Assembly: GCA_947626145.1 (NCBI GenBank)
Contig: CANQRB010000001.1
Location: forward strand, 372,001 to 436,000
From: an uncultured Clostridia bacterium
Lineage (GTDB): Bacteria > Bacillota > Clostridia > UMGS1883
DNA length: 64,000 nucleotides
Direction: 5' to 3'
This document shows, piece after piece, positions 465-64,000 of this stretch. The notes beneath the pieces were generated by a model, which searched no databases, was not told the DNA's origin, and was given only the letters and a program-made list of their open reading frames with translations. A program made the position numbers and the translations under genes. Position 1 is the stretch's first letter, and every line of letters starts with the position of its first letter.

Positions 465-1244
465 TTATTCATTACTTCCGAATTTACGAAAACGCCTATA
501 TCTTTTTTCCAGCAGTTCATCAACAGGGACGTCCTTACGGTCATCAATGGCTTTTTTGAGCCATGTCTGGAGCAGCATATACGCCGTACCGAAATCCTTG
601 TCGCTTTCGGGAATTATCCGCTCGATAACGCCCATCTCAAGGAGATCCTCAGCGGTAAGCCGAAGGCACTGACTGGCCTCCCTGACCTTTTTTGCGTCGC
701 GCCACAAAATAGAGGCGCAGCCCTCGGGAGAAATGACGCTGTAAATGGAATTTTCCATCATCCAGACCTCGTCGCTGACGGCAAGGGCCAAAGCTCCGCC
801 GCTGCCGCCCTCGCCGATGAGGACGGAAATCACCGAGGTACGGAGGGTCATCATTTCCATGAGGTTTTCGGCAATAGCCAGTCCCTGTCCCCGCTCTTCG
901 GCACCCATGCCGGGATAAGCTCCGGAGGTATCCACAAGGCATATCACAGGGCGGTGAAATTTTTCCGCCTGTTTCATAAGGCGCAGAGCCTTACGGTAGC
1001 CCTCGGGGTTGGGAGAGCCGAAATTCCGGGCGATTTTGTCCTTGGTGGAGCTTCCTTTTTCCTGTGCGATAACCGTCACCGGAATCCCGCACAGACGGCC
1101 GATGCCGCCCACAATCGCCCCATCGTCGCCGTAGCGCCGGTCGCCGTGCAGCTCCTGAAAATCAGTGAAAATCCCATTAATATATTCCATGGCCGTGGGC
1201 CGACCCTTGGCGCGGGCCGCCAAAACCTTTTCATAAGCGTCCAT
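465..1244 (-). CDS. accA: Acetyl-CoA carboxylase carboxyltransferase, alpha subunit
   Basis: With AccD this subunit transfers CO2 from carboxybiotin on AccB to acetyl-CoA, making malonyl-CoA for fatty acid synthesis. The 259 residues show the crotonase-like carboxyltransferase core: DTSGAYPGMGAEERGQ at 105-120, a Gly-rich oxyanion segment (GEGGSGGALA, 144-153) and ISPEGCASILW at 171-181. It lacks the longer N-terminal helix of proteobacterial AccA, as is usual in Firmicutes. The ATG follows a GAGGAGG ribosome site and lies two bases after the accD stop, so the two are translationally coupled. It is the last gene of the fab/acc operon. Confidence 0.97.
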   Translation of the reverse strand: MDAYEKVLAARAKGRPTAMEYINGIFTDFQELHGDRRYGDDGAIVGGIGRLCGIPVTVIAQEKGSSTKDKIARNFGSPNPEGYRKALRLMKQAEKFHRPVICLVDTSGAYPGMGAEERGQGLAIAENLMEMMTLRTSVISVLIGEGGSGGALALAVSDEVWMMENSIYSVISPEGCASILWRDAKKVREASQCLRLTAEDLLEMGVIERIIPESDKDFGTAYMLLQTWLKKAIDDRKDVPVDELLEKRYRRFRKFGSNE

Positions 1245-1246
1245 TG

Positions 1247-2113
1247 TCAGACCTCCTCATTTTTCGGAGCCTGCGCCCCGCTGTGCAGAGCCAGCAGATT
1301 TATGAGCATATCCCGCTGTCCGCTTCGGGGCGAGATCGCATCCACAAAACCGTGATCCAGCAAAAATTCCGCCGTTTGGAAGCCCTTTGGCAGCTTTTTG
1401 CGGATAGTCTGCTCAATGACTCTCGGCCCGGCGAAGCCCACAAGGGCCCCAGGCTCAGCAAGGATTATGTCTCCCTCCATGGCGAAGGAGGCGGTGACGC
1501 CGCCGGTGGTGGGGTCGGTGAGCACAACAATGTAAAGGAGTCCGGCGTCACTGTGACGCTTTACCGCTCCGCTGGTTTTGGCCATCTGCATGAGGCTGAG
1601 TATGCCCTCCTGCATTCTCGCTCCGCCCGAAACGGTGAAGCCGACCACCGGCAGCCCCTTTTCCAACGCAAGCTCAAAGCCACGGGTAATTTTTTCGCCC
1701 ACCACGGTACCCATGGAACCGATCATAAATTCGGGCTCCATGACAAACATGACGCAGGCATGGCCGCCGATGGCCGCCTCGCCCACAATAACGCCCTCGC
1801 TCTCGCCGCTCTTTGCCTTGCTGGAGCGGAGCTTTTCGTCATAGTCGGGGAAATCCAGAAGGTTGACGCTCTCCATTCCGGGACAAATCTCGACAAAGCT
1901 GTCCTTGTCGGCTATGAGCTCAACACGCTGGCGGGAATTCATGCGGAAGTGGTGCCCGCACTTCGGACAGACTTCAAGGTTATCCTTGAGCTCGGTGACC
2001 GCCGTCTCAACGCCGCAGTCCGGACAGGTCTGGGTGGGTTCGACAAACTCCTCCGCCACCTGACGGCCCTCCAGCTCGTTATTTGCCCTTTTAAATAAAT
2101 TCCTTGGGATCAT
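1247..2113 (-). CDS. accD: Acetyl-CoA carboxylase carboxyltransferase, beta subunit
   Basis: This is the zinc-bearing partner of AccA in the malonyl-CoA-forming carboxyltransferase. The 288 residues open with a four-cysteine zinc ribbon (Cys30, 33, 49, 52; CPDCG and CPKCG). The carboxyltransferase core follows, with SGGARMQEG at 162-170, TTGGVTASFA at 202-211 and GFAGPRVIEQT at 226-236. AAGGTGA precedes the ATG at a good distance. Length and domain order are normal for the family. It sits between accC and accA in the operon. Confidence 0.97.
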   Translation of the reverse strand: MIPRNLFKRANNELEGRQVAEEFVEPTQTCPDCGVETAVTELKDNLEVCPKCGHHFRMNSRQRVELIADKDSFVEICPGMESVNLLDFPDYDEKLRSSKAKSGESEGVIVGEAAIGGHACVMFVMEPEFMIGSMGTVVGEKITRGFELALEKGLPVVGFTVSGGARMQEGILSLMQMAKTSGAVKRHSDAGLLYIVVLTDPTTGGVTASFAMEGDIILAEPGALVGFAGPRVIEQTIRKKLPKGFQTAEFLLDHGFVDAISPRSGQRDMLINLLALHSGAQAPKNEEV

Positions 2114-2124
2114 TTATATCACCT

Positions 2125-3444
2125 TCAGCCCTGAAAATGGGTTTTCATAAAATCAGTGTAATAGTTGCCGCTCTTAAAGTCTTTATCGCCTATTATCGCC
2201 AGCTCCGTTTCAACGTTGTTGTTCACGCCCACCATTATCAGCTCGCCGAGAGCCGACTGCATACGGCGGATGGCCTCGTCACGGGTCTTGGCCTGAACAA
2301 TGAGCTTGCCGATCATCGAATCATAATAGGGCGGTATCGTGCAGCCACGGTAAAGGGCGGTGTCAAAGCGGACGCGAAAACCTCCGGGAATGTGGAGCAG
2401 GTTAAGCTCGTTGGTGCCGCTTACGGCATTTATACGGCATTCAATGCTGTGGCCGTGAATAAACACGTTTTTTTGCTCAAAATTAAGAGGAACTCCGGCG
2501 GCGATCCTTATCTGCCACTTAACCAAATCTATATTGGTGACCATTTCCGTAACCGGATGCTCCACCTGTAACCGGGTATTCATCTCCATGAAATAAAAGT
2601 TGTTATCCTTATCCAATAGGAACTCCACGGTACCGGCGTTTGTATAATCGGCGGCACGGGCGGCCTTGACGGCGGCTGCGTAGAGCTTCTCCCTCAGCTC
2701 GGGAGTCACGGCGCTGGAGGGCGATTCCTCCAGAAGCTTTTGGTTATTGCGCTGAACGGAGCACTCCCGCTCACCCAGACAAACGATATTTCCCTTACTG
2801 TCGCAGAGCAGCTGAACCTCGATGTGCTTAACGGGGGAAAGGAACTTTTCAAGGTAGCAGGCCCCATTGCCAAAGGCGTTTTCGGCCTCGGCCGAGGCGG
2901 TCAGAAAGGCCTTTTCCAACTCTTCGGGAGTGTTCACTATGCGGATGCCCTTGCCTCCCCCGCCGGCGGTGGCCTTTATCATCAAAGGATAGCCGATTTT
3001 TTCGGCTTCCTTTTTTGCCGTTTCAACGTCGGGGACAATTCCACAGCCGGGAGTCGTGGGTACGCCGGCGGCCTTCATGGTGGCCTTGGCGGTCTCCTTG
3101 TCCCCCATGCGGCGGATAACGTCGCCACTCGGGCCGATAAAGGTTATGCCGTTTTGGGCGCATAGGTCAGCAAAGTCGGCGTTCTCGGACAAAAAGCCGT
3201 AGCCCGGATGTATGGCCTGAGCTCCCTTGGCCTTGGCGACGGTGATTATTGCCTGCATATTCAGATAACTGTCCCTTGGCTGCGGCGGACCGATACAGAC
3301 GGCGTCGTCGGCCAGAGAAACGTGGAGAGCGTCAGCGTCGGCGGTGGAATATACCGCCAGACTCTCGATCCCCATCTCGCGGCAGGCACGTATTATACGA
3401 ACCGCTATCTCGCCCCGGTTGGCAATTAAAATTTTAGAAAACAT
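2125..3444 (-). CDS. accC: Acetyl-CoA carboxylase, biotin carboxylase subunit
   Basis: This subunit carboxylates the biotin on AccB using ATP and bicarbonate. The N-terminal domain begins FSKILIANRGEIAVRI. The ATP-grasp domain carries the glycine loop GGGGKG at about residue 161 and the EMNTRLQVEHPVTE signature, followed by a normal C-terminal domain (439 residues). I place the start at the ATG at 3444, which has GGGAG 8 bases upstream. A GTG three codons earlier would leave almost no spacing. The gene lies between fabZ and accD. Confidence 0.97.
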   Translation of the reverse strand: MFSKILIANRGEIAVRIIRACREMGIESLAVYSTADADALHVSLADDAVCIGPPQPRDSYLNMQAIITVAKAKGAQAIHPGYGFLSENADFADLCAQNGITFIGPSGDVIRRMGDKETAKATMKAAGVPTTPGCGIVPDVETAKKEAEKIGYPLMIKATAGGGGKGIRIVNTPEELEKAFLTASAEAENAFGNGACYLEKFLSPVKHIEVQLLCDSKGNIVCLGERECSVQRNNQKLLEESPSSAVTPELREKLYAAAVKAARAADYTNAGTVEFLLDKDNNFYFMEMNTRLQVEHPVTEMVTNIDLVKWQIRIAAGVPLNFEQKNVFIHGHSIECRINAVSGTNELNLLHIPGGFRVRFDTALYRGCTIPPYYDSMIGKLIVQAKTRDEAIRRMQSALGELIMVGVNNNVETELAIIGDKDFKSGNYYTDFMKTHFQG

Positions 3445-46122: not shown

Positions 46123-46533
46123 TTAGCACAATTTTGTTACCGTGATATCCGCGTTGGCGACCGTGAGGGCTACTGTGGAACCGTTGGAAATAGATACACT
46201 GACAGTTTCATTACAGCAAACCTGAATTAACGTAGTCAAACTTACAGAATAAATGTTATCAACCGCGGTTGTAACAGTGGCCTGAGCGCCGGGGATATTT
46301 ACACCGTTGGTCTGTATGTTGACAACAGCGGTCCCGGCGGCGGCGGTGGCTACATTTCCATTAAATGTGACCTCATAAATGCCGGGCTTGCGCAGATTTA
46401 CAACGCCGGTGCCGGGCTGGTGGGTGGCAGCGGCACAGCAGGCGCGGCCGCCGGTCTGAATTCGGGTAGACGCGTACAGTACGGGCGCGTTTACATTGAC
46501 GGTCTGAGCCGCCACATTTACAGCATTAACCAT
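46123..46533 (-). CDS. Uncharacterised phage-associated protein, beta-sandwich type
   Basis: The 136 residues are rich in Val, Thr, Ala and Asn and low in charge. Regular beta-strand phrases (VVNLRKPGIYEVTFNGNVAT, then VVNIQTNGVNIPGAQAT) resemble the C1q/TNF-like or BclA C-terminal jelly roll. Two CC pairs (GRACCAA and QVCCNE) stand out. It could be a trimeric surface or virion protein. GAGG precedes the ATG. Function is not known. Confidence 0.6.
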   Translation of the reverse strand: MVNAVNVAAQTVNVNAPVLYASTRIQTGGRACCAAATHQPGTGVVNLRKPGIYEVTFNGNVATAAAGTAVVNIQTNGVNIPGAQATVTTAVDNIYSVSLTTLIQVCCNETVSVSISNGSTVALTVANADITVTKLC

Positions 46534-48124: not shown

Positions 48125-49042
48125 TTACACCCCTTTTATGTATTTGACGGCGTTTAAGACCATCTCAGCGACCTCCGCGCGGCTTGCGGGCCTGTCCGGC
48201 GCAAACTTGCCGCTGCCGTCGCCGTGGACTATCTCCAAAGCGGCAAGCTCATGTATTTGCTTTTCCGCCCAGTGGTTGGAAACGTCCGTAAATCTTATGC
48301 CCTTTGTCAGCCCGGCCAAGTTAAGATAATACCTGATACCGCTCTGCACTATGCGGGCCCAGCCGTTCTCGGTCTTTTCCACGTCTATTTGCGTACCCGC
48401 CAAACTTACGCCGTACAACTCATACTCCGTCCCCGCGCCGTAACGCACATTGAGAAAGCTGTCGGGGTCGGTAACGGTGTAAGCCTCGGTTTTGCCTGCC
48501 TTTAAGTTTGTCGGCTTATGTACTATGAAATAATATTTGACCTCATTTTTGAAGAAATTCCAGTCGGCGTCCAGTCTTGCCGCCGCGTTGGAAGCCGGGT
48601 CATTGATCAGCACGTTATTTCCCCGTATTCCGTACCACAATACGAAATGGCCTGAGCTTGTCCAGCGTCCCTTACCCATACAGGCGATAACGTAATCTCC
48701 CCGTTTGACAGCGTTGTAAGCGGCCAAATGCTCCGCCGCGCCGGGCTTATGGTACAGGCTTGCGCCGTTAAGCTGTTCGCATTTTAATCCGAATTTTTTG
48801 AAATACGGGGTAAAAAATGCGTAATAAGTGCCCTGATTGGCGGCCTTGTACCCGTTGGCCAAACTCCACTTGGCGGCCTCGAGGGGCGTTTCCGCAGGGT
48901 CGGCCCATTCGGCCGCAGCCATCGCCGCCGCCGTGGGGCCGCACCCTGACTTGCCGAGGTTTGTATTTTCCCCGCTGGTGCTGTATTCGTAATTCTTCCA
49001 GCGGCTGTCCGTCTGCATATATGAAACCGGTTTAAAACTCAT
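48125..49042 (-). CDS. Phage endolysin: C39-like peptidase, SH3 and SLH domains
   Basis: The 305 residues show an N-terminal papain-like C39 peptidase with Cys34 in GKSGCGPTAAAMA, His132 in SSGHFVLWYG and Asp148 in INDPA. A bacterial SH3 domain (about 186-243, TDPDSFLNVRYGAGTEYE) and a single S-layer homology module (about 249-303, FTDVSNHWAEKQIHELAALEIVHG) follow. The peptidase would cut peptide cross-links in the wall, and the other two domains would hold it there. No signal peptide is present, so release depends on the holin. Its start overlaps the holin stop. Confidence 0.88.
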   Translation of the reverse strand: MSFKPVSYMQTDSRWKNYEYSTSGENTNLGKSGCGPTAAAMAAAEWADPAETPLEAAKWSLANGYKAANQGTYYAFFTPYFKKFGLKCEQLNGASLYHKPGAAEHLAAYNAVKRGDYVIACMGKGRWTSSGHFVLWYGIRGNNVLINDPASNAAARLDADWNFFKNEVKYYFIVHKPTNLKAGKTEAYTVTDPDSFLNVRYGAGTEYELYGVSLAGTQIDVEKTENGWARIVQSGIRYYLNLAGLTKGIRFTDVSNHWAEKQIHELAALEIVHGDGSGKFAPDRPASRAEVAEMVLNAVKYIKGV

Positions 49043-55316: not shown

Positions 55317-55988
55317 TTAGATTATACCCATGTCGCTGCCGTCCGTATCGGGTTCGGTCTCAGGCTCGGGCAGAGGCTTTGACGGGCTTACGGTGTTCAT
55401 ATCGTCGCCGTCGTCCCCGTCATTTATAGAAGGGCCCATATCGTTTAAGGCAACAGCGTCCGCCTGGGGGCCGATAGACGCGCTGGCGGTGAATTTAATG
55501 GACGTTGTGAGGGAATTCACGGTGCCCCAGGTGCTCTTTTTGCTAAAGCCTATCTGAATAGGCATATCCACATGGGCGTCTCCGCCAAGGGACTGAGGCG
55601 TTATGGTGCAGTCGGTCTGCAATTCCGCCTCATAGCTTCCGGCGTTGCCAACATAGCCATGAATGATAAGCACCTCGAACAAGGCGAACTCGCTGTAGGC
55701 CTTGCGTTTGTAAATGTCGTACAGCTTCTCGGCCAGTTTGGAGCCGCCGCGAATGGTGTAAGGCTCGAAATCCTGTGTCATTTCAAGGTCGTTAACGTCG
55801 GTCTCCGTAATGCCAAGGATGTCGTTAACGGTTTCGATGTCGGGGTTGAACTCGATGCTGCTTTCCTCAATGCCGTGTCCGACACGTTCCCAGCTGGGGG
55901 CGCTGTGGGAGCCGACATTCACGCAAGTGACAAGCAGTTTGCGTTCGGCCTTCTGGTTGTCTTTAAGGTTAAAAGTCGATGCGGCCAT
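55317..55988 (-). CDS. Major tail (tube) protein
   Basis: The 223 residues carry a tail-tube domain from 1 to about 165: NQKAERKLLVTCVNVG, ESSIEFNPDIETVNDILG, RGGSKLAEKLYDI, then GGDAHVDMPIQIGF. A Pro/Asp/Glu-rich tail of about 40 residues follows. It is the close paralogue of the N-terminal half of the gene at 59307-60776, with roughly 70% identity by eye over the first 107 residues. A terminator (56023-56053) separates it from the upstream gene. GAAAGGAAGTATTTTAT precedes the ATG. Confidence 0.85.
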   Translation of the reverse strand: MAASTFNLKDNQKAERKLLVTCVNVGSHSAPSWERVGHGIEESSIEFNPDIETVNDILGITETDVNDLEMTQDFEPYTIRGGSKLAEKLYDIYKRKAYSEFALFEVLIIHGYVGNAGSYEAELQTDCTITPQSLGGDAHVDMPIQIGFSKKSTWGTVNSLTTSIKFTASASIGPQADAVALNDMGPSINDGDDGDDMNTVSPSKPLPEPETEPDTDGSDMGII

Positions 55989-58624: not shown

Positions 58625-59212
58625 TTATTCTTTGGGCTTTGCCCGGATGCCGGTAAAGGTGAAGTGGAAAGGCTCCGTCTTTGCCGCGTCCGCCCCGCCG
58701 CCCATGCCGGGGATGTTGATGTTTTGCGGGCTTTCGAACAACCCGTCACGGTTTTCCGTCAGCCCCTTGAAGATGTCCGCGTCGGCCTTTCCGGCATTTG
58801 CCTTGTCTGCCATAGCGGTGCGGAATTCGTTGAATATCCCTTTTTTGGTGAAATCGTTGATGAATTTTTTCTCGCCGGCGGCGGCGTTGAACCGCTCAAG
58901 GTCGGCGGCCTCCTGCGTTGCGGCCTCGTCGGCGGCCTTACGGTCATCGATTATCTTTTGCAGCTCCGCCACCTTGGCGTTCAGCGCGTCGGCGTTGGCT
59001 CCGGCGGCCTTTAGCTGTTCAAGCTGCCCCTCGAGAGCTTTGACCGTCTCATTGGCGGCACTGAGCTTGTCGACCTGGGCGTCAAACTTGCCTTTGGCCA
59101 CGTAATCGCCGCCGCTAAGGTCGGCCAGTTTGATTTTGCCCGCCGCGCAGGCGTTCACAAATTCGTCGAATGTAAGGGATTTGTCCGCAAAAATTGGTTT
59201 TAAAAATTCCAT
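58625..59212 (-). CDS. Phage scaffold protein (GP20 type)
   Basis: The 195-residue protein has a central coiled coil (about 50-110, QVDKLSAANETVKALEGQLEQLK and on) and a C-terminal Gly-rich end. It matches the minor structural GP20 or scaffold group that guides capsid assembly and is often absent from the mature particle. The preferred start is the ATG at 59212, with GGAAAGG about 8 bases upstream. The frame extends to 59260 without a better site. Confidence 0.8.
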   Translation of the reverse strand: MEFLKPIFADKSLTFDEFVNACAAGKIKLADLSGGDYVAKGKFDAQVDKLSAANETVKALEGQLEQLKAAGANADALNAKVAELQKIIDDRKAADEAATQEAADLERFNAAAGEKKFINDFTKKGIFNEFRTAMADKANAGKADADIFKGLTENRDGLFESPQNINIPGMGGGADAAKTEPFHFTFTGIRAKPKE

Positions 59213-59306
59213 ATATATTTTCCTTTCCGGCATAGATTTTATTTGTATATGCGCTGCCACTCAGCGCCGCGCCGATGCCGCGTTAAACCTCCGCGGCGAG
59301 GGAGGG
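59213..59306 (-). repeat. Hairpins directly after the variable lectin gene
   Basis: Within 94 bases of the stop are two inverted repeats on the minus strand: CCTCC/GGAGG (about 59288-59305) and GCGCTG/CAGCGC with a 5-base loop (59251-59267). Hairpins just downstream of the variable repeat help retrohoming in known DGRs, so these are candidates for such a site. They could equally be ordinary transcript structures. Confidence 0.45.
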
Positions 59307-60776
59307 TCAGGCGTCGTAATATGCGAGGCGGAAGCCGCGGCCGACGTTGACGTACGAGCGCGGGTTGCTGAGGATCAGGGCGAAAACGCCGGCGTCCGCA
59401 CCATACGTCCAGTGGCCCCCGCGATACGGGAGGCGCTCACTATACTTTGTTTGCGCCCAGAAGTGGTCGCCCTTATAATCTGCCGCTGTCCCGTCCGGCC
59501 CGAGGCCCCAAAGCTGAAGCGTTTTCTTGGCGTTCGCGCCTATGCCTGTAGCGTATGCCACGCTGCCGAAAGCCGTGCTTTCCCAGTTGCTGGTTGGCGT
59601 TGATATGCCGGTGCCCCAAGTGTAAACGCCGCCTACGCGGTCAAGCTTGACGGTGCTGCCGCTGGCCTTGACCGCCGTGTCGGTGGTCTTGCACTCCGGC
59701 GTAACAAATTTGCCTGTGGCGGCGTCGAGGGCCTTCCAGTCGTCGCCCGGGTTCGGTTTAAACTGTGCTTCGCCCCATACCAGGCGGAGGCCGTCGACCC
59801 ATTCCCAAACATTTCCGTTTAAGTCATAAATGCCGTTTTCGGTGCCGTCGTGGCTCCATGTCACCGGCCCGGTGCCGGTCTTGACCAAATTAATTCTGTC
59901 GTCATCGCCGTAAGTAGCGGGTTCGGCCACATATTCCGTTTCGGTGTGGTCTTTGCCGTAGTCGTTGTTGCCCTTGGGCTGAGTGCCGTTTTTCTTGCAC
60001 CACAGGGCGATTGCCGCCCACTCCGCGTTGGTCATCAGGTGCCAGCCTTTGCCCTTTGCCGCGCATTTTGAAGCGGCGTCATCAAAATTTATATCTGTCC
60101 ACGGCGTCTGGCCGTATTTGCTCTGCGGAACGCCCTTGCCGTCGTCGCTGGCCTGATATTTGCCTATCCATATGCCGGCAAGGGGCTTGCCGTTGACGAT
60201 AAACGCCGGGTGCAGCTCGTTGTCGCCGTCCTCAAGCACGTCGCAGTTCCTGAACGCGGGTATCCACACCATTTCTTCTTTGCGGAAGGTCATGCCGTTG
60301 GTCAGCTTGTCCACGAGGCCAAGCTCTTTGTCCCCGGAAAAGGTGATCGTTATCGGCATGTCAACATGTGCGTCGCCGCCCTCGGACTGTGGCGTAACGG
60401 TGCAGTTTATATGCTTTTCGGCGGTGAACCCGTCGGAGGGCGTAGACACATAGCCGAAAATAAGCAGCACCTCAAACTGCGCGAATTCCGTATACGCGCG
60501 GCGCTTGTTGATGTCGTATATCTTCAGCGCCAGCTTGGAGCCGCCCCGCACCGTCATCGGCTCAAGGTCTTGGGACATCTCGAAGCTCTTGACGTCCGTT
60601 TCGGTATTGCCGAGTATGTCGTTGACGGTCTCGATGTCCGGGTTGAACTCGATGCTGCTATCCTGCACGCCGCGTCCGACAACTTCCCATTCGGGCGCGT
60701 CGGGTGTTCCTGCGTTTACGGCGGTAACAAGCAGCTTGCGGGCCGCCTTTTGATTGTAATTCAGGTTAAAAGGCAT
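59307..60776 (-). CDS. Tail-tube paralogue fused to an FGE/C-type lectin domain; likely DGR target
   Basis: The 489 residues have two parts. Residues 1-165 match the phage's own tail-tube protein: NQKAARKLLVTAVNAG, SSIEFNPDIETVNDILG, GGDAHVDMPITITF. Residues 168-489 form a formylglycine-generating-enzyme-like C-type lectin fold, with MVWIPAF, NAEWAAIALW and GNVWEWVDG (321-329). The catalytic cysteines of true FGE are absent from the last 100 residues, so it is a binding domain. The last ~44 residues (446-489) have the pattern of DGR variable proteins: YRGGHW, GADAGVFAL, NPRS, GFRLAYYDA. The gene lies between a zinc-ribbon gene and the scaffold gene. GAGGTGATAAAAA precedes the ATG. Confidence 0.88.
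   Translation of the reverse strand: MPFNLNYNQKAARKLLVTAVNAGTPDAPEWEVVGRGVQDSSIEFNPDIETVNDILGNTETDVKSFEMSQDLEPMTVRGGSKLALKIYDINKRRAYTEFAQFEVLLIFGYVSTPSDGFTAEKHINCTVTPQSEGGDAHVDMPITITFSGDKELGLVDKLTNGMTFRKEEMVWIPAFRNCDVLEDGDNELHPAFIVNGKPLAGIWIGKYQASDDGKGVPQSKYGQTPWTDINFDDAASKCAAKGKGWHLMTNAEWAAIALWCKKNGTQPKGNNDYGKDHTETEYVAEPATYGDDDRINLVKTGTGPVTWSHDGTENGIYDLNGNVWEWVDGLRLVWGEAQFKPNPGDDWKALDAATGKFVTPECKTTDTAVKASGSTVKLDRVGGVYTWGTGISTPTSNWESTAFGSVAYATGIGANAKKTLQLWGLGPDGTAADYKGDHFWAQTKYSERLPYRGGHWTYGADAGVFALILSNPRSYVNVGRGFRLAYYDA
59310..59441 (-). repeat. Candidate DGR variable region (VR) at the 3' end of the lectin gene
   Basis: This stretch codes for the last ~44 residues. In related lectin folds this is where the DGR variable sites sit, and the conserved framework RGG-W, AGVFAL, RS and GFR is interrupted by changed positions (H, T, Y, D, I, S, Y, V). 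A DGR template repeat would match it except at adenines. No such repeat was found in the window. Confidence 0.65.
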
Positions 60777-60806: not shown

Positions 60807-60841
60807 GAGCCGCATACGTGAAATACTCACATATACGGCTC
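60807..60841 (-). terminator. Late-operon terminator, GAGCCGTA type, copy 3
   Basis: On the minus strand GAGCCGTATATGTGAG pairs with CACGTATGCGGCTC, and TTTTTGTTTATTTTTG follows. It lies at the end of the zinc-ribbon gene and just before the lectin fusion gene, so that gene may be transcribed separately from the upstream genes. Confidence 0.75.
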
Positions 60842-61034
60842 AATGGCTCTGTTTTATATCGCTGTTTTGGCTCAAAGGCTCGGGAAAATACAAACGTCCG
60901 TTAATTATCGTCGGCGTCAAATGCTCGCCGCACCGCTTACACAATAGGTCGGGGTTTATCATGGTGGTGTTGCCGTAAACCGGGACGATTTTCTTCCCGC
61001 AGCCGCACCACAACCAACCGTCACGGATGCACAT
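60840..61034 (-). CDS. Small zinc-ribbon phage protein (Com/KTR-like)
   Basis: The 64 residues carry CGCG near residue 10 and CKRCG near 33, likely one zinc-ribbon site, and the phrase PTIINGRLYFPEP. Small Cys-rich proteins of this kind resemble the phage Mu Com regulator or the cysteine-rich KTR group. It lies between the minor capsid gene and the lectin gene. AGAGGAAAATAT precedes the ATG. A regulatory role is possible, not shown. Confidence 0.6.
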   Translation of the reverse strand: MCIRDGWLWCGCGKKIVPVYGNTTMINPDLLCKRCGEHLTPTIINGRLYFPEPLSQNSDIKQSH

Positions 61035-61122: not shown

Positions 61123-62286
61123 TTAATGATACCCTGAAACGGTCAGTTTTTTCGGCTTTACTGACAGCCCCGCGGCCTTGCTGAACTCCGTGTATTTGTC
61201 CTTCAAGGCGTTGATTTTCGCCCTTGTTTCCCGCCGTAGCTGCTCATCGCCGCTGCCCTTGGCGAGAATATACACGTCCTTTTGGCGGCGAATGTTGGTC
61301 TCCATGCGCCGTTGTATCTGCGTGGCCTGATACATGGTGTAGTGCTTACCCTCAAACTCGATGCCCCGCGCGTTTTCGTCGGCCATCGCCCTAAGCTCCT
61401 CTTCGGTGTACTTTGGCGGCGCGCCCATCTTGATTTGAAAGACGAAGTGGTAACAGTTTAACGTGCCTATACGGCGTTGTAGGCTGTTGTTCAACTGTTC
61501 AAACGCCTCGTGGGTGTACTGGCGGCCCTGTATGGGTTCATGGTCGGGAGCGCTGAACCTGTGGGCGGAAATCTCCACCCCGTCCGCTCCGAATTCCTCG
61601 CCGACCTGACGCTGTATCTCAATATTGGTCTGTTTTATGCCCTCAAGCAAATTCATTCTTACCGCGCTGTCCAGCCGCCGGTGGTAGCCCGTAGCGTAGT
61701 CCACGCGCTGTAAGCCCTCTTCGCCCAGCGCTTTAAGGCTTTTGCGCATGGAGCTGTAAAAATCCTCATACCCAAGCGTTGTCGTCTGTATGGCTTTGTC
61801 AAGTATGCCTGTGTACGTGTTTGTCAAATCGGTGGGCACCTTGCGCCCTCGGGCGTCGTAGGTCATGTACGCAGTGGTGTTGGACAGGCCGGCATATTCC
61901 CGGGCGGCAACCTCGGCCTGCGCCTTTACCCAGCGTTGCAAGGGCTTGTTTTCCTCGTACGGGATAAACGGCTTTTGCGCGTAATCGTAGAAAACCTTGC
62001 TGTATTCCACGCTTTCACGGGCGAGAAAGTCGTAAATGACGTATATCTCCGCCACGTTCAGCGCGGTCATACGTTCCAGCTCGCGGTTTATTTTGTCCAC
62101 GTCCGCCCCGTACCGCCGCATAAGGTTCAGGCGGTGGGTATCCGTCACCGACATGACGCCCAGCTCCTTAAGGCGGGCGGCTATCATCTGCAAATAGTAG
62201 GTGTTGAATTCGTCTATCCTCTCGCTCAGGCGGTCGCCTAGGGCGTTAATGGTGTCCTCGGTGAGAACCTTATTCCGTTCCGGCAT
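61123..62286 (-). CDS. Phage minor capsid protein (Phage_min_cap2 type)
   Basis: The 387-residue protein matches the minor capsid 2 family: a helical N-terminal half, GYEDFYSSMRKSLKALGEEGLQRVDYATGYHRRLDSAVRMNLLEG (in parts), GVEISAHRFSAPDHEPIQGRQY (in parts) and a C-terminal basic tail. It overlaps the portal gene by 17 bases. It is a minor head protein, possibly involved in DNA entry. Confidence 0.87.
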   Translation of the reverse strand: MPERNKVLTEDTINALGDRLSERIDEFNTYYLQMIAARLKELGVMSVTDTHRLNLMRRYGADVDKINRELERMTALNVAEIYVIYDFLARESVEYSKVFYDYAQKPFIPYEENKPLQRWVKAQAEVAAREYAGLSNTTAYMTYDARGRKVPTDLTNTYTGILDKAIQTTTLGYEDFYSSMRKSLKALGEEGLQRVDYATGYHRRLDSAVRMNLLEGIKQTNIEIQRQVGEEFGADGVEISAHRFSAPDHEPIQGRQYTHEAFEQLNNSLQRRIGTLNCYHFVFQIKMGAPPKYTEEELRAMADENARGIEFEGKHYTMYQATQIQRRMETNIRRQKDVYILAKGSGDEQLRRETRAKINALKDKYTEFSKAAGLSVKPKKLTVSGYH

Positions 62287-63997: not shown

Positions 63998-64000
63998 CTT

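Follow-up and report, generated by a model that had tools for sequence, protein, structure and literature searches.

A DGR-type C-lectin joined to a paralogue of a putative tail-tube protein in a Clostridia prophage, probably an orphan of its retroelement

The siphophage tail-tube proteins lambda gpV and SPP1 gp17.1* carry C-terminal ornament domains that are Ig- or FN3-like and not DGR-type lectins. The gene described here resembles them in placing an additional C-terminal domain on what appears to be a tube subunit, although the fold of the ornament differs. For that domain the comparison is with the targets of DGRs. TaqVP, from a Thermus aquaticus prophage, is a DGR variable protein of solved structure (PDB 5VF4; excerpts of PMC6328139), and like our protein it is an FGE-type C-lectin, the two C-terminal variable regions (VRs) aligning residue by residue; TaqVP, however, is a single-domain protein with an adjacent cassette of Avd, template repeat (TR) and reverse transcriptase (RT), whereas our lectin sits on a tail-tube paralogue and no such cassette was found in the assembly. 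The targets of Faecalibacterium phage Lagaffe, Dulem virus 37, BalMu-1 and Vibrio phage VHML share the VR layout but, unlike our gene, come after baseplate or tail genes and are themselves followed by the RT. The nearest template belongs to a DGR in a genome of the same genus (G002), which differs in that its complete cassette follows tail genes and its target has the usual short N-terminus. Tentaclins and Hoc-like DGR targets, diversified virion or receptor-binding proteins according to the portions of PMC10743442 and PMC5883640 available, likewise use other carrier domains and have an RT present.

We analysed a 64,000-nt stretch (the window; C1:372001-436000) of a 2.44-Mb genome assembly comprising 23 contigs and estimated to be 95% complete. 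Within a prophage lies a gene for a 489-aa protein (Table 1) that matches phrog_3099 over residues 8-164 and phrog_2889 over residues 169-488 (E 2e-102), and in which Pfam calls FGE-sulfatase with partial domain coverage. The initial annotation had overlooked this fusion to a tail-tube paralogue. The gene is placed among the head genes, with a minor head protein on one side and the scaffolding protein on the other. Contig C1 stops at 442858, inside phage genes, and thus cuts the prophage, while the tail-end and lysis side is within assembled DNA. We also observed an unusual lysin-like protein with C39-peptidase, SH3 and S-layer-homology parts beside a holin-like gene (window 48125-49042, (-) strand) and, near the tail end, a small BclA C-terminal-like protein, just below the Pfam cut-off, that could be a fibre knob (46123-46533, (-) strand).

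Table 1. Coordinates, in window positions, of the fusion gene, its parts and its neighbours.
Feature	Position	Strand	Basis
Fusion gene, 489 aa: tail-tube-like N-domain and FGE-type C-lectin with C-terminal VR	59307..60776	(-)	ORF, PHROG, Pfam, own-family HMMs
N-domain (residues 1-167); its paralogue is the phage's stand-alone tail-tube-position protein	60276..60776	(-)	65% identity to 55317-55988; weak tail-tube fold matches
FGE/C-type-lectin domain, residues 168-489	59310..60275	(-)	57% identity to G002 DGR target; TaqVP 5VF4, E 1.2e-41
Variable region (VR), homologous to the G002 115-nt template repeat	59322..59436	(-)	Comparison with relatives' templates
14 nt matching the G002 VR/TR 3' end without mismatch	59323..59336	(-)	Position expected for IMH; putative role
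Terminator-like hairpin and T-run, immediately upstream of the fusion gene	60807..60841	(-)	16-pair stem
Head scaffolding protein, downstream neighbour of the fusion gene	58625..59260	(-)	phrog_194
Minor head protein, upstream neighbour of the fusion gene	61123..62286	(-)	phrog_581
Stand-alone tail-tube-position protein, relative of the N-domain	55317..55988	(-)	phrog_3099; siphophage position, 33/41 capsid-relative loci

By its last 320 residues the protein is a member of the FGE/C-type-lectin family of DGR variable proteins (family profile E 1e-80), and the TaqVP match (E 1.2e-41) runs through the VR. The closest relative with a full cassette is in G002, where a target 57% identical to ours is followed by Avd, template and RT, the bAvd and RVT_1 assignments being confirmed by Pfam. 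The lectin is 36-50% identical to the targets of Lagaffe, Dulem virus 37, BalMu-1 and VHML; in each case the annotation places the RT after the target, and it names an Avd in all but VHML. To calibrate the family we used the 11 relatives in which an HMM detected a template-like ORF, and dropped loci that were truncated or lacked a template; across the VR/template pairs of these 11, 135 of 273 template adenines were changed in the VR as against 3 of 995 other bases, which is the DGR signature. The proposal of the initial annotation that the C-terminus is a DGR-type variable region is thus borne out by its close homologues, which are targets of complete DGRs with adenine-specific differences between VR and template.

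The VR itself retains the framework of the family. The final 44 residues of the ORF, encoded by 59310-59441 on the (-) strand and ending in RLPYRGGHWTYGADAGVFALILSNPRSYVNVGRGFRLAYYDA and the stop, keep RGG-W, GA, AGVFAL, RS and GFR with variable sites between them, and at ten sites where the templates of most relatives encode Asn (AAY) the residues here are H, T, Y, D, I, S, N, Y, N and G. As had been noted from the layout, the gene ends right after this region: 15 nt, stop included, separate the VR from the gene end, compared with 11-24 nt in the 11 relatives, which places the VR at the extreme C-terminus. Because the window VR has no template of its own to be compared with, the test for adenine bias relies on relatives' templates. 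Against the nearest, that of G002, 10 of 21 adenine positions differ at codon positions 1 and 2 versus 5 of 47 others (Fisher p 0.0014), while the third codon positions, 14 of 34 of them changed, show the divergence expected between such genes. Against the consensus of the 11 templates, taking the columns that agree in 9 or more of them, the VR departs at 9 of 20 adenine columns and at 2 of the 31 remaining ones (p 0.0018). A similar test of the relatives' own VRs against other relatives' templates gave 6-16 adenine columns and 0-5 others, a range that includes the window VR. A pattern search of IMG/VR for sibling VRs returned two matches, both by chance.

The Pfam name FGE-sulfatase would suit an ordinary FGE/SUMF1-like domain that no DGR ever touched, its variable-looking positions being normal divergence. 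We regard this as very unlikely: the changes cluster at the adenine positions of relatives' templates (p about 0.001-0.002), 11 close homologues are targets accompanied by a template, and the TaqVP alignment continues through the VR. Since the adenine excess appears against relatives' templates, a DGR most likely produced the VR, whether or not one still acts on it. Three codon changes go beyond what adenine mutagenesis of a family-type template would yield (ACG at an Asn site, Val at a Thr site and Arg at a Val/Ile site). They are consistent with drift once the template was lost; they may instead reflect an own template of a different sequence.

We found no template repeat in the 64,000-nt window, as the initial annotation had stated, and the repeat is absent from the assembly too. 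DNA and protein searches of the assembly for a second copy of the VR returned only the gene itself, its N-domain paralogue and short chance matches; a template in the assembly would have shown up, as the same kind of protein search recovers the G002 template at E 1e-8. Nor did the PF00078 profile or the G002 RT as query reveal a DGR-type RT in the 2.44 Mb. The single RT gene detected by PF00078, which is also the sole match of the G002 query, encodes 606 aa on contig C2 and, judged from its sequence, looks like a group II intron RT. The segment around it (C2 395575-399009) holds a phage portal-like ORF (34-705) followed by this RT with an HNH-like tail (1237-3057), an arrangement that suggests a group II intron inside another prophage of this genome. 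Searches for Avd gave no match in the assembly, and none in the control genomes either. We also examined the starts of contigs C8 and C2, integrase-bearing contig ends, as the missing part of the prophage; the C8 start carries integrase, primase-like and recombination-like genes, read from their translations, and its content was taken to be an unrelated mobile element.

The near-repeat with an RT and Avd that the initial annotation had proposed seeking to the right of the window failed to appear, in that neither a template nor a DGR-type RT is present in the 95%-complete assembly, and the locus therefore cannot be called a complete DGR. Of the places proposed there for the retroelement core, right of position 64000, elsewhere in the genome or lost, the assembled part of the genome holds no DGR RT or template, and loss or a place in unassembled DNA stay as candidates. 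The assembly being 95% complete and the prophage cut by a contig end, an orphan state is only probable: granted a DGR origin, we think it likely that the VR is an orphan, and it is possible, if unlikely, that an Avd-TR-RT cassette lies in unassembled DNA.

In the latter case the DGR would be live and its target remote, with RT, Avd and template in an unassembled part of the prophage or genome still rewriting the VR. The truncation of C1 within the prophage and the assembly completeness of 95% leave room for such a cassette, and remote or second targets are known: Lagaffe_CP has two VRs, according to the excerpt of PMC11792537 available, and second FGE-type genes are present in Lagaffe and Dulem virus 37. 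On the other hand, all 11 relatives that have a template carry it and the RT directly after the target, the assembled tail-end and lysis side contains neither RT nor template, and the assembly-wide searches were negative. We consider a remote live DGR unlikely, if the least unlikely of the alternatives. A separation of target and RT is not unique to the window, as targets of the same lectin family without RT, Avd or template recur in six further loci (L031, L122-L125 and L128; at least 1.5 kb downstream examined); most of these sit on short contigs, so that their RT may be out of reach, and they are possible further orphan or remote VRs.

Alternatively, a DGR belonging to a different phage within the cell, either a G002-like prophage or a co-infecting phage, could diversify the VR in trans. 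The G002 DGR comes from the same host genus and has a 57% identical target, the same lectin frame and an identical 14-nt VR 3' end; against it as a donor of sequence, its template matches the window VR at only 81 of 117 positions, and the assembly of this strain holds no G002-like prophage. Service in trans seems to us improbable as an account of the locus, and only slightly less so once a DGR origin is granted.

We then considered the carrier. The N-domain is 65% identical to a protein of the same prophage whose gene is flanked by a tail-completion gene on one side and by Gp15 and putative tape-measure genes on the other. Relatives of this stand-alone protein occupy the same place, between tail-completion and tape-measure genes, in the siphophages Blautia phage Montmirail and Dulem virus 35, and it was found as a free-standing protein in 33 of the 41 IMG/VR loci that have a related capsid gene, several of the remaining 8 ending close to that gene. 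No sheath gene was recognised among the prophage proteins scanned, so the simplest reading of the stand-alone protein is a siphophage's major tail-tube protein. Searched by sequence against the PDB, the N-domain had no meaningful match. Its AlphaFold model (pLDDT 74) matches Hcp and phage tube proteins best, if weakly, with a best Foldseek E of 0.02 and VIA Z up to 6.2, where unrelated folds reach Z 5; together with the gene position of the paralogue, these weak matches hint at a tail-tube fold. In a full-length model the lectin half was of too low quality, and that model was left out.

The usual targets have about 31 residues before the lectin, and in our gene the tube-like domain takes their place. 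Among all loci scanned with both profiles, the two domains were joined only in this gene and its own copies (L003, L011 and L013). A fusion found only once might be an assembly chimera of two unrelated genes, but the open frame is continuous and the halves are alike in composition (GC 0.561/0.597; GC3 0.743/0.739); a repeat-driven misjoin is excluded because the N-half has diverged from its paralogue. We consider a chimera extremely improbable. The dN/dS was about 0.2 for the N-domain versus its paralogue and 0.3 for the C part versus G002, with pN of 0.26-0.28 versus pS of 0.59-0.65 across the two halves; by these sequence comparisons, both halves evolve under constraint.

The lectin was not found in 40 records of capsid or tube relatives (54 loci less short or duplicate records), in a search that gave no match at all and hence had no positive control. 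Six of the 40 carry an RT matching that of G002. In the two of these six that were inspected, both with a VR and a template, 18 of 18 (L113, VR/template 486-620/1173-1307) and 19 of 22 (L115, 260-399/959-1098) differences fall at template adenines, and the L113 target is a DUF6273 protein. The presence of DGRs with another type of target where the lectin was not found suggests that this phage group can host DGRs and that the lectin was imported.

Together, we think it reasonably probable that the gene encodes a phage virion protein in which a DGR-diversified FGE-type C-lectin, captured from a DGR phage, was joined to a duplicated tail-tube subunit, and that it is now an orphan. The lectin head would have been donated, without the Avd-TR-RT cassette, by a G002-like DGR phage of the same host genus, and the VR would have been shaped by a DGR before or after the transfer. 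The tube-like domain may let the fusion enter the tail tube or the tube end, where the lectin would project from the tail and could bind a cell-surface or mucus ligand. The VR is most likely frozen, and would then record what was selected in a past round of mutagenic retrohoming. More speculatively, and in our judgement improbably, the siphophage may display DGR-type hypervariable lectins on its tail tube, over its length or at its tip, by building in an additional tube subunit that bears the lectin, with the VR refreshed by retroelements of other phages of the same host genus, in which case the target gene would be living off the mutators of others.

The lectin family and its VR are known; the carrier and the context are new. 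Among the open-access papers searched, PMC8008677 included, we found none that describes a DGR lectin with a tail-tube protein as its fusion partner. In the sections available, PMC8144416 only suggests that DGR lectin tips recombine onto other carrier proteins, and our gene offers a concrete case of what it proposes; the same survey, by its own statement there, would miss targets remote from an RT. The fusion suggests that a tail-tube subunit can be such a carrier and that a VR can survive the loss of its retroelement or move away from it. This matters for the counting of DGR targets and for the question whether orphan VRs stay fixed or are rewritten in trans.

The fusion gene lies at a place that varies within this phage group. 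The distance from the minor head protein gene to the capsid gene is 747-1383 nt in 23 of the 29 loci (of 41) where both neighbours could be placed, larger in the other 6, and 2522 nt in the window. Extra genes, some appendage-like or lysis-like, were inserted in all five wide-spaced loci inspected, and the gap between minor head and scaffold genes appears to be a recurrent insertion site for accessory genes (L087, L090, L091, L092, L104 and L110; 6/29).

Among flanking signals, the GC hairpins that the initial annotation had placed within 94 bases of the stop show weakly: this stretch folds with a z of -1.4, as good a value being reached by 23 of 200 shuffles, and the 51-base stretch at the stop (z 0.2) is no better than shuffles, while one relative has a clear 7-bp hairpin after its stop (z -2.1). 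A sigma-70 scan found no promoter. Sites with a hairpin and T-run were as frequent in the region as in shuffles (6 found, 6.1 expected), the one immediately upstream of the fusion gene having the longest stem among those listed. Together with that terminator-like site, a small ORF for a 64-aa Cys-rich protein lies just upstream of the fusion gene (window 60840-61034, (-) strand); it has no Pfam match and is reminiscent of Mu Com.
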